IMG/VR virus record: IMGVR_UViG_3300031227_002298
Location: 1-25,968 of that record
Length of the DNA stretch: 25,968 nt
Direction: 5' to 3' (one strand)
Source: a virus
Shown piece by piece: positions 22,682 through 25,762 of the stretch. The notes under the pieces are model-generated. The model worked only from the letters and a program-made list of their open reading frames with translations, made no database searches and was not told the DNA's origin. Each line of letters opens with the position of its first letter. Within the stretch, counting starts at the first letter, position 1. The position numbers were made by a program, and so were the translations under genes.

Positions 22682-23175
22682 CGATACATGGAAATTCATA
22701 CGTCACGGTAGCTGAGAGGTTGCAAGAGGTTCACAAGATTCTCAAAGGATCACGGGTGAGCATCACGACCGAAGTGCTAGTCCACTCCCCGGTCGTCGTG
22801 AAAGCAACAGTCGTAACCGATCAAGGAACGTTCACAGGCACGTCAGCCGCTAACCCTTCAAAGGCCATCGAGAAGGTAAGCCCATACGAGGTTGCGGAGA
22901 CATCAGCCGTGGGCAGAGCGTTGATATTCGCCGGGTTCACGGGCGGGAACGGTGGCTCTATCGCATCAGCCGAGGAGATGCAGAAGGCGACCGGCGAGGA
23001 CGTGGAGTTCATCCTCGACCAGGAGATAATCGTCCTCCGTGACTACATCCTGTCCACGGGAACGGACGAGAAGAAGTTCCTTGCGTGGCTGAAGGTGGAA
23101 GCAGTTGAAGAGATCCCGGTAAGCTCGTACAAGAAAGCACTTGAAGCACTCAAAGCGAAAGGAAAGAAGAAATGA
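22672..23175 (+). CDS. Rad52/ERF-like single-strand annealing protein
   Basis: A 167-residue protein: 'YVTVAERLQEVHKIL' opening, 'VVVKATVVTDQGTFTGTSAA' strands, and the strongly conserved 'VAETSAVGRALIFAGF' (about 74-89) followed by 'SIASAEEM'. This pattern is shared by phage annealing proteins that remote-homology searches place near Rad52/DdrA/ERF. The C-terminus ('KFLAWLKVEAVEEIPVSSYK') is a small helical tail typical of phage annealing proteins. It would anneal ssDNA made by the exonuclease encoded four bases of overlap downstream. Confidence 0.75.
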   Translation: MPITIHGNSYVTVAERLQEVHKILKGSRVSITTEVLVHSPVVVKATVVTDQGTFTGTSAANPSKAIEKVSPYEVAETSAVGRALIFAGFTGGNGGSIASAEEMQKATGEDVEFILDQEIIVLRDYILSTGTDEKKFLAWLKVEAVEEIPVSSYKKALEALKAKGKKK

Positions 23176-23771
23176 TAAAAATCGACTGCGAACAAGGAAG
23201 CCAGGAGTGGTTCGATGTAAAGCTGGGAGTCCCTAGTGCGTCGAACTTCGACAAGATCGTAACCATGAAAGGAGAACCATCGAAGCAAGCTCAGAAGTAT
23301 ATGTATCAACTCACCGCCGAGCGTGTCAGCGGCGTGAGAGAGGAGACATTCCAAAGCCAAGCCATGACCCGAGGCATTGAGATGGAAGCGGAGGCACGAG
23401 GGCTGTACGAGATCGCTACGGGTGCTACCGTTGACCTGTGCGGTCTTTGCTTCAAGGACGAGGCTAAGCTGTTCGGTGCGTCACCAGATGGGTTGGTCGG
23501 TGAGGACGGTTGCATTGAAATCAAATGCCCGAACGCAGCGACTCACGTTGGATATCTCCTGGGCAAAAAGTTGCCAAGCGAATACTTCCAACAGACCCAG
23601 GGGCAGTTGCTCGTGACCGGGCGTAAGTGGAACGACTATGTTTCATACTTCCCAGGACTGAAGCCTTTGATCGTGAGAGTCGTGAGGGACGAGGTGTTCC
23701 TTGAGGCTCTTGAGAAAGAATTGAACAACTTCGTAACCGAATTAAACAAACTAGTAAACCAAATCAAATAG
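23172..23771 (+). CDS. YqaJ/lambda-type viral exonuclease
   Basis: A 199-residue PD-(D/E)XK nuclease. Motifs in order: 'GSQEWFDVKLGVPSASNF' (9-26), 'RGIEMEAEAR' (67-76), 'GASPDGLV' with catalytic D106, 'CIEIKCP' with E116 and K118, and 'QTQGQLLVTG' (141-150). All catalytic residues are present and the length is normal. It makes 3' ssDNA from dsDNA ends for the upstream annealing protein, with which it overlaps (ATGA). Confidence 0.95.
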   Translation: MIKIDCEQGSQEWFDVKLGVPSASNFDKIVTMKGEPSKQAQKYMYQLTAERVSGVREETFQSQAMTRGIEMEAEARGLYEIATGATVDLCGLCFKDEAKLFGASPDGLVGEDGCIEIKCPNAATHVGYLLGKKLPSEYFQQTQGQLLVTGRKWNDYVSYFPGLKPLIVRVVRDEVFLEALEKELNNFVTELNKLVNQIK

Positions 23772-23779
23772 GAGGATGT

Positions 23780-23974
23780 ATGGAAAAGAAATTCTTGTGT
23801 GTAGGAGAGCCGTATAAAGGCAGTGATGGCTCTGATAAGATGTACTTCAACAGGATAGGGGAACTGTTCACCGGGAAGAATGGTAAAGAGTACGCTAAGA
23901 TTTACCACATCCCCGGAACACTAGTCCATGTGTTTGAAGACAAACCCAAGGAAACGGAAGGAGCTGCATTCTAG
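23780..23974 (+). CDS. Small protein of unknown function after the exonuclease
   Basis: A 64-residue protein with AGGAGG before the ATG. 'FLCVGEPYKGSDGSDKMYFN', 'RIGELFTGKNGKEYAKIYHI' and an acidic tail ('DKPKETEGAAF') suggest a small beta-barrel with a disordered acidic end, somewhat like ssDNA-binding accessory proteins. No family is claimed. It ends in TAG, and a promoter and leader RNA begin just after it. Confidence 0.7.
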   Translation: MEKKFLCVGEPYKGSDGSDKMYFNRIGELFTGKNGKEYAKIYHIPGTLVHVFEDKPKETEGAAF

Positions 23975-23993
23975 TGGACTTTCCGTTCTCTAG

Positions 23994-24002
23994 TGGTATA
24001 CT
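23994..24002 (+). promoter_or_regulatory. Extended -10 promoter (TGGTATACT)
   Basis: A TG one base before TATACT makes an extended -10 element that needs little -35; TGGACT lies about 16 bases upstream. Expected start about 24009-24010, exactly at the base of the long leader stem. The promoter is nested in a perfect 9-base inverted repeat, TTTCCGTTC (23980-23988) and GAACGGAAA (24018-24026). Confidence 0.6.
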
Positions 24003-24008
24003 CTTTCT

Positions 24009-24108
24009 GCTTGAAGGGAACGGAAATTTTGCGTCTAAAATCTTGGCCGTTAGTAGGTGTGGGGACTTAATCGTTTCCTTCAAGCCACCGAAAGCGGCCA
24101 TTTTTTTT
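24009..24108 (+). ncRNA. Structured leader/small RNA with predicted pseudoknot
   Basis: P1: CTTGAAGGGAACG (24010-24022) pairs with CGTTTCCTTCAAG (24072-24084), 13 bp with one G-U pair. Inside it lies a small hairpin, ATTTT-GCGTCT-AAAAT (24026-24041). P2: TGGCCGTT (24044-24051) pairs with 24093-24100 (AGCGGCCA), eight pairs with one G-U, crossing P1 as an H-type pseudoknot. P2 is followed at once by eight T. The transcript would end 10 bases before the HNH-like gene's ATG. It could be an attenuator of that gene or an independent small RNA. No known class was recognised. Confidence 0.55.
24044..24108 (+). terminator. T-run terminator candidate of the leader
   Basis: The right arm 24093-24100 precedes TTTTTTTT (24101-24108). 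The only strong partner is 24044-24051, giving a stem of eight pairs with a long loop that contains the right arm of P1. A small local CCG-AAAG-CGG stem (20 bases before the run's end) also exists. The long-range nature makes termination likely to depend on how the leader folds. Confidence 0.5.
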
Positions 24109-24118
24109 AGGGGGAAAC

Positions 24119-24457
24119 ATGACTAGCAAAGAATCTAGAAAAGCACACTTTGAAAGAAACCCGTGGATGCGGTCTTTTTACTACGCAAGACTTAGGTGCA
24201 CTCAGAAAACACACCCAAGCTATAAGACCTACGGTGCAGCCGGGATAAAATTCTTAATAACTAGAGAGGAAATCAAAGCTCTTTGGATTCGTGATTCAGC
24301 TTGTTTAATGAGTAGACCATCAATTGATAGAAAAATAAACACATCAGACTACTCGTTTGAAAATTGTAGATTCATTGAACTTTCGGAAAACATAGGAAAT
24401 AGGAACAGAATCTATCGCAAACAAGGTGGCCCTGGGAGGTGTAACAGTCATGCCTAA
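24119..24457 (+). CDS. HNH-like mobile nuclease-type protein
   Basis: A 112-residue basic protein with the arrangement 'RLRCTQKTHPSYKTYGAAGI', 'LWIRD', 'SIDRKINTSDYSFENCRF' and 'ENIGNRNR'. This is the 'RCxxP..YxxYGgrGI ... SIDRiDN.G.Y...NCRw' family found scattered in phage genomes and generally taken as an HNH-like homing-type DNA nuclease. The typical G of the DN-G step is replaced here. It has its own promoter and leader, a different base composition (A-rich) from its neighbours, and interrupts the recombination cluster, which fits insertion. Its 3' end overlaps the NinB-like gene by eight bases. Confidence 0.7.
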   Translation: MTSKESRKAHFERNPWMRSFYYARLRCTQKTHPSYKTYGAAGIKFLITREEIKALWIRDSACLMSRPSIDRKINTSDYSFENCRFIELSENIGNRNRIYRKQGGPGRCNSHA

Positions 24458-25273: not shown

Positions 25274-25762
25274 ATGAAAACTTGTTCCGTAAAAGGATGT
25301 ACTAAGAAACATTGTGCGAAGGGATTATGCCCGATGCACTACAGAAGAAAAAACTATGCAAGGCATATTCCAATGAACGCACCGCCAAAACATGTTTTTG
25401 GAAAAGGGTTCATAGTGGACAAAGACGGATATAAACAGGTGAGAAACGAGTTCGGAAAATACGTCAGAGAACACCGACTGATAAAGGAAAAAGAAACTGG
25501 TAGAAAACTGTTAAGAACAGAACTTGTCCACCATAAAAACGGAGTTCTAACGGATAACAGAATCGAAAATCTAGAGATTATGACATTTGCGAAACACGCA
25601 AGGTTGCACAATTTAACAATTCCAAAATCAGTAAAAGAAGATGCTTTGAGATTGTATAAAAACGGAATGTCCTTGATGCGAATTCCAAAAGAAATTCCAA
25701 TAAGTTACAGCTGTGCTTATTGGTATATAAGAAACTCTGGATTTCCAATAAGGGGAAGATAA
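25274..25762 (+). CDS. HNH homing endonuclease
   Basis: A 162-residue protein: zinc knuckle with C4, C9, C14, C19, H22; an 'REHRLIKEKETGRKL' helix (65-79); then the HNH core 'ELVHHKNGVLTDNRIENLEI' (83-102) with H86-H87, N89, N95, N99 and a His at about 108; and a C-terminal HTH-like segment (about 118-155). AAAGGAG lies before the ATG. Its strong A bias (AAA, AGA codons) differs from neighbours and points to horizontal arrival. It sits as a free-standing nuclease between small early genes. Confidence 0.9.
   Translation: MKTCSVKGCTKKHCAKGLCPMHYRRKNYARHIPMNAPPKHVFGKGFIVDKDGYKQVRNEFGKYVREHRLIKEKETGRKLLRTELVHHKNGVLTDNRIENLEIMTFAKHARLHNLTIPKSVKEDALRLYKNGMSLMRIPKEIPISYSCAYWYIRNSGFPIRGR

Follow-up and report, generated by a model that had tools for sequence, protein, structure and literature searches.

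A homing endonuclease has to cleave rival genomes while sparing its own carrier. To our knowledge, the regulation of free-standing homing endonucleases has been described for only a few T4-like cases. The T4-like leaders are simple hairpins that mostly sequester the ribosome site. RNA structures cover the ribosome sites of I-TevI, I-TevII, I-TevIII, segB and mobE (PMC2988022, PMC3014915), so that control of a mobile nuclease by its own leader, which a preliminary description of the present locus had considered unusual, has precedents. In Aeromonas phage 25, the hairpin of seg43 adjoins the ribosome site without covering it (PMC2988022).

Here, we analysed a leader RNA in the virus record IMGVR_UViG_3300031227_002298, part of a podovirus-like phage with a T7-type portal; the 25,968 bases of the record are called the window below. 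The element is close to the T4-like leaders in function, and in both cases an RNA structure lies directly before a phage endonuclease gene, with an own or late promoter near. In structure it is unlike them, because its ribosome site (24109-24114) is free rather than enclosed in a helix, its end is terminator-like and unrelated nucleases are served. It is also a longer, apparently bistable RNA with a sigma70-type promoter and conserved loops.

In mechanism, the nearest described counterpart is the leader attenuator. Attenuators of the trp, pyr and ilvB-II type and some riboswitch platforms share with the window family two exclusive helices, a U-run hairpin and a possible leader ORF. However, the window family has no recognisable leader-peptide code, known ligand or known protein, and its competitor helix is formed with the very 5' end of the RNA. 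The omega RNA of IscB/HEARO is likewise a structured RNA immediately 5' of an HNH-bearing gene, within a mobile unit. Here, small HNH proteins or a DUF559 nuclease, of unrelated types, follow, the RNA ends before the gene and no guide region was recognised. Rfam gave no match to the HEARO RNA model, and the window protein is a 112-aa HNH protein and not of the IscB type. Type III toxin-antitoxin RNAs (ToxI) also combine a promoter, a pseudoknot-capable RNA, a terminator and a nuclease gene; by description, the genes behind our leader differ in being DNA-type endonucleases of several unrelated families, with matches to HNH or DUF559, and no tandem short repeats were noticed in the RNA.

An inserted cassette carries promoter, leader RNA and nuclease gene

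The promoter, the RNA and an HNH-like gene form a cassette of 475 bases that parts a 64-aa gene from a NinB/Orf-like gene (Table 1), with the -35 box as its first bases. In seven relatives the site is empty, with an overlap of TAATG/TGATG or 12 nt joining the two flanking genes. A Pfam search with the 112-aa HNH-like protein gave no match. The promoter, a perfect 9-base inverted repeat, the two long stems P1 and P2, the run of eight T and the ribosome site all lie where the preliminary description had placed them. P1 (24010-24022/24072-24084) comprises 13 pairs, one of them G-U, and can be extended to 24009-24085; P2 (24044-24051/24093-24100) comprises eight pairs, again with one G-U. The inverted repeat (TTTCCGTTC/GAACGGAAA, 23980-23988/24018-24026) surrounds the -10 box and falls partly within the P1 5' arm; the span 23980-24026 could be an operator. 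A second HNH gene in the window (HNH_3, 25274-25762) has a TGGTATAATG promoter-like site near its 5' side and no such leader RNA.

Table 1. Coordinates of the cassette and its surroundings in the window, and of a second RNA set in the contigs named
Feature	Position	Strand	Remarks
YqaJ/RecE-type exonuclease gene	23172-23771
64-aa gene	23780-23974		directly 5' of the cassette
Inserted cassette (promoter, RNA, HNH gene)	23975-24449	+	between 64-aa gene and NinB-like gene
Leader promoter	23975-24002	+	-35 TGGACT 23975-23980, 16-nt spacer, extended -10 TGGTATACT 23994-24002
P1 5' arm	24009-24022	+	purine-rich; begins at predicted transcript start
Loop L1, conserved U-run/A-run block	24023-24043	+	UUUUGCGUCUAAAA in the window; UUUUUUAUGYCUAAAA in most copies
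P2 5' arm	24044-24051	+
AGUA, 5' side of internal loop between P2 and P3	24052-24055	+	GUA opposite GAA in 9/10 copies
P3 5' arm	24056-24059	+	GGUG; P3 score exceeds 3000/3000 shuffles
Hairpin P4	24061-24078	+	GGGGAC 24061-24066, loop UUAAUC, GUUUCC 24073-24078
P1 3' arm	24072-24085	+	shared with P4
P3 3' arm	24086-24089	+	CACC
GAA, 3' side of AGUA/GAA internal loop	24090-24092	+
P2 3' arm	24093-24100	+
T8 run	24101-24108	+	U-tract of predicted intrinsic terminator
Ribosome binding site of HNH gene	24109-24114	+	AGGGGG; ATG at 24119
HNH-like endonuclease gene, 112 aa	24119-24457	+	PHROG 3377 HNH endonuclease, E 7.8e-11
NinB/Orf-like gene	ATG 24450		ribosome site and start overlapped by last bases of HNH gene
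Second RNA set, L150	1131-1238
Second RNA set, L167	6413-6524
Second RNA set, L168	8343-8455
Second RNA set, L169	5916-6028
Second RNA set, L171	1866-1967
Second RNA set, L180	9126-9238

The leader RNA recurs in metagenomic phages

A topology descriptor (long P1, crossing P2, T-run) matched this site alone when both strands of the window were scanned, and eight shuffled windows gave no match. In total, ten copies of the RNA on eight contigs were aligned (alignment A11), comprising the window and nine copies in metagenomic phage contigs. The L010 contig was found by blastn with the window leader (E 2.8e-4), and both stems are rewritten there; the L138 and L143 copies were found with the topology descriptor. 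A covariance model built on these four copies from P1 and sequence only (R1) retrieved the remaining six. L013 scored E 3.5e-4, L231, L234 and both copies in L232 lay between E 1.9e-9 and 1.8e-8, and L247, which shares its record with the L234 copy, reached E 1.3e-12; the model E-values rest on a short calibration and are rough. L236 (2864-2968) and L233 were borderline and left out of the ten, and L008 was rejected as a chance seed match. The L236 element has the L1 block TTTTTTATGTCTAAAA and P2 GCCCGTAGG/CCTACGGGC, and stands before a repeat-protein gene.

The RNA recurs in phages related through replication and recombination genes. It does not follow the HNH family, since relatives of the window HNH protein (L002-L007) have unrelated upstream regions with no leader RNA. 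Exact-motif scans with GGACTTAATCG returned the L010 contig and otherwise chance matches only. No copy was found in 299 genomes from the phylum of a UBA6915 MAG (L227), in the other records searched or in named phages. In line with the preliminary description, which had recognised no known RNA class, no family in Rfam 15 passed its gathering threshold, and relaxing the cut-off to E 10 brought up only miRNA and sRNA matches at chance level. Nothing in Rfam favoured a group I intron remnant or a self-cleaving ribozyme, and no description of the family was found in the open-licence literature searched. The family appears to be new and unrelated to known ones, and the leader class is almost certainly a real RNA.

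The two copies in L232 (9015-9118 and 9909-10011) are diverged and lie 900 bases apart in one phage, which suggests a small regulon or a duplication.

Both crossing stems are kept by paired changes

Across the ten copies, 96% of P1 cells are canonical, with changes on both sides in 13 of 16 pairs. For P2, whose register in A11 was set from the best helix in each sequence, 93.8% of cells are canonical and six of seven pairs show double changes. P2 contains 21 double-change cells (7.6 ± 2.1 in shuffles), and sliding its arms by 1-3 columns lowers the canonical cells to 41-55%. Between copies, P1 and P2 together are rewritten by paired changes in 62 double-change cells, compared with 19 in shuffles. 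These figures count sequences, not events, over ten copies on eight contigs, all metagenomic. Six copies (L013, L231, both in L232, L234 and L247) were found with the P1-only model, and all six have P2; its presence there is largely independent, because P2 was absent from the finding model. Thus, the preservation of both stems by compensatory changes, on which the preliminary description had made its reading depend, holds in the nine other copies. While the stems change completely, the loop sequences stay (the L1 consensus of Table 1, AGUAGG, ACUUAACC and GAAA). The nested fold of the window leader alone is unremarkable (z -1.6); it is comparison, not folding energy, that mainly supports regarding the pairings as real and not one-off.

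P1 and P4 compete for one strand

Beyond P2, an AGUA/GAA internal loop, which we take to be a loop-E/sarcin-ricin-like signature, leads into P3 (three to five pairs) and the hairpin P4 (four to eight pairs, loop UUAAYC). P3 and P4 occur in all or nearly all copies and both exceed all of 3000 shuffles; P4 is present in 10/10 copies, and none of the shuffles (0/3000) was as strong. P4 takes its 3' arm from the inner portion of the P1 3' arm, which makes the two helices mutually exclusive. Columns 70-76 of A11 are common to both helices, and both partners are complementary to that strand and covary with it. In ViennaRNA, every copy gave similar energies for the two folds, -21 to -32 kcal/mol for the P1 form and -18 to -24 kcal/mol for the P2-P3-P4 hairpin.

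A T-rich run lies directly 3' of P2 in all ten copies, although the terminator has a long loop and in some copies a broken U-run (UCUUUU, UUUAAUUU). Each copy thus places a hairpin with a direct U-run upstream of a gene and, together with the conserved competitor helix P1, which excludes P4 of the terminator hairpin, this amounts to the anatomy of a transcription attenuator. P1 and P2 also cross and are each supported by covariation, as expected of an H-type pseudoknot. On the alignment, their coexistence as such a pseudoknot is possible. However, the crossing is no proof of it, because P2 is part of the P2-P3-P4 hairpin and P4 competes with P1; P1 and P2 may instead act in alternative folds. 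The pseudoknot of the preliminary description thus stands as two crossing, covarying helices, but the step from crossing to pseudoknot does not.

Promoters, spacing and the genes behind the leader

Every one of the ten copies has a sigma70-type promoter of its own, which agrees with the consensus at 9-12 of 12 positions. The matches sum to 107 over the ten copies, and the largest sum in 2000 shuffles was 80. The -10 box ends 6-8 nt before P1 throughout, and the start codon lies 18-19 nt beyond P2 in nine copies, with a longer distance of 23 nt in L013. In the window and the other copies, the ribosome site lies 3' of P2 and the U-run, outside every conserved helix.

An endonuclease gene follows nine of the ten copies. 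It is an HNH gene in the window, L010, L143, L231, L232 (9909), L234 and L247, an endonuclease of PHROG 2340 in L138 and a DUF559 nuclease in L013. The link is not strict, because the L232 (9015) copy precedes a replication-initiation-like protein gene. Only some of the proteins behind the leaders are related by blastp (31-51% over parts). In L010, the leader and another HNH gene occupy a different junction; in L138 the leader lies behind a NinB-like gene, and in L143 between SSB-like and NinB-like genes. Together with the insert in the window, these other junctions with other nucleases indicate that leader and nuclease move together and that the nuclease is exchangeable.

Other structured leaders

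Related phages contain a second set of promoter-proximal RNAs (Table 1), whose loop 1 is A-rich and which have crossing helices and a U-run. The L150 and L169 copies have CUGUyUC..CCAGA in common, and the L169 copy stands before an HNH gene with the ribosome site inside P2. As members of the window family, these A-rich leaders (L150, L167-L169, L171, L180 and L188) were rejected, since none scored with R1 or R2. The same holds for a strongly folded three-way-junction RNA in L015 (8093-8191, z -6.5), which lies directly before another HNH gene and whose GGCCCC could pair with the ribosome site GGGGGG. In L012 (2441-2535), nested hairpins with a T-run after each precede an Slt-like gene and resemble two overlapping terminators.

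Discussion

On balance, we favour the view that the window leader is one copy of a new family of cis-acting leaders, an attenuator working by a choice between P1 and P4. Transcription would begin at the base of P1 from a host-type sigma70 promoter. In one fold, the 5' end of the RNA would pair with the strand around 24072-24085 to form P1; in the other, that strand would fold locally as P4, stacked with P3, the AGUA/GAA loop and P2. The P2-P3-P4 hairpin with its U8 would be an intrinsic terminator at which the RNA stops immediately ahead of the HNH ribosome site, and the balance between P1 and P2-P3-P4 would set read-through into the nuclease gene. From this anatomy we infer termination itself, its control by the choice between P1 and P4, and the direction of that control. 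Leader-ORF translation, a small molecule, a protein or folding kinetics alone may be the trigger. Promoter, leader, ribosome site and nuclease would make up one cassette, into which other phages have plugged another gene, mostly for a nuclease. Of the roles first considered for the locus (attenuator, riboswitch-like switch or free small RNA), that of a conserved attenuator-like leader in cis to the nuclease is thus the one retained, although the third layer of P3 and P4 had been missed.

That the leader exerts cis control of the gene behind it is very probable. A free trans-acting small RNA, with the nuclease reached through leaky read-through only, would suit the compactness of the unit (promoter, 100-nt body, terminator up to the U-run); the fixed 18-19 nt spacing and the nuclease behind 9/10 copies point instead to cis action, every copy found has a gene directly behind it, and we regard this reading as highly improbable. 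Regulation of ribosome loading alone, by the stem before the ribosome site and with the T-run as a U-rich spacer, would follow the RBS-sequestering hairpins of T4-like phages and the seg43 hairpin (PMC2988022). It is quite unlikely here, with the ribosome site outside all conserved helices and, in every copy, a T-run adjoining P2 in the manner of a terminator. A P1+P2 pseudoknot may also terminate constitutively, a reading that persists because both folds contain or permit P2.

Two further models concern what might operate the P1/P4 attenuator. A ribosome on a leader ORF opening at the L1 AUG could decide between P1, P4 and the terminator, and so couple translation to the nuclease; its ribosome site would lie in the purine-rich P1 5' arm, and the ORF would extend across the structure and end at or past the nuclease start. 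L1 provides AUG in eight copies and UUG in one, and this frame is open up to the gene in 8/10 copies, compared with three and none in the other frames. The stop of the ORF overlaps the gene start in L010 (ATGA), L232 (TAATG), L013 and the window, and the ORF is fused in frame to the gene in L138 and L234. There is also a precedent, in which a structured motif turned out to act as a uORF attenuator (PMC10272879). However, the window has GCG where the others have AUG, two copies have early stops, the conserved RNA motifs fall in different reading frames, and a null model keeping the pairs and conserved columns already expects 4.4 of ten open frames (P = 0.015 for at least eight). Terminators can still function when they lie less than 100 bp into a coding region (PMC4824070), which we also count against the leader ORF. 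We consider this model a serious but rather unlikely candidate. Alternatively, a pocket for a metabolite or a phage or host protein could be built from the AGUA/GAA loop together with the conserved blocks of L1 and L2, possibly within an H-type pseudoknot of P1 with P2-P3. The constancy of the loops while the stems change completely would fit such a switch, as would two phages with two copies each before different genes, like a small regulon. Yet no Rfam aptamer matched, the genes behind have no metabolite in common, and the competition of P1 with P4 makes the pseudoknot only one option; a sensing pocket is accordingly unlikely.

For the phages, the leader is probably a control switch for mobile nucleases. 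More tentatively, and with somewhat less than even confidence, we suggest a new RNA switch that senses an infection signal (translation state, a metabolite or a protein) within a portable cassette that extends from the promoter to the ribosome site. Unrelated mobile endonucleases would have been inserted into this cassette time and again, and it would keep them in check as they spread. One RNA design stands in front of six or more unrelated nuclease types and travels with them. Should it be an attenuator, mobile nucleases would share and exchange a regulatory part, and the leader would offer a compact, testable RNA switch.
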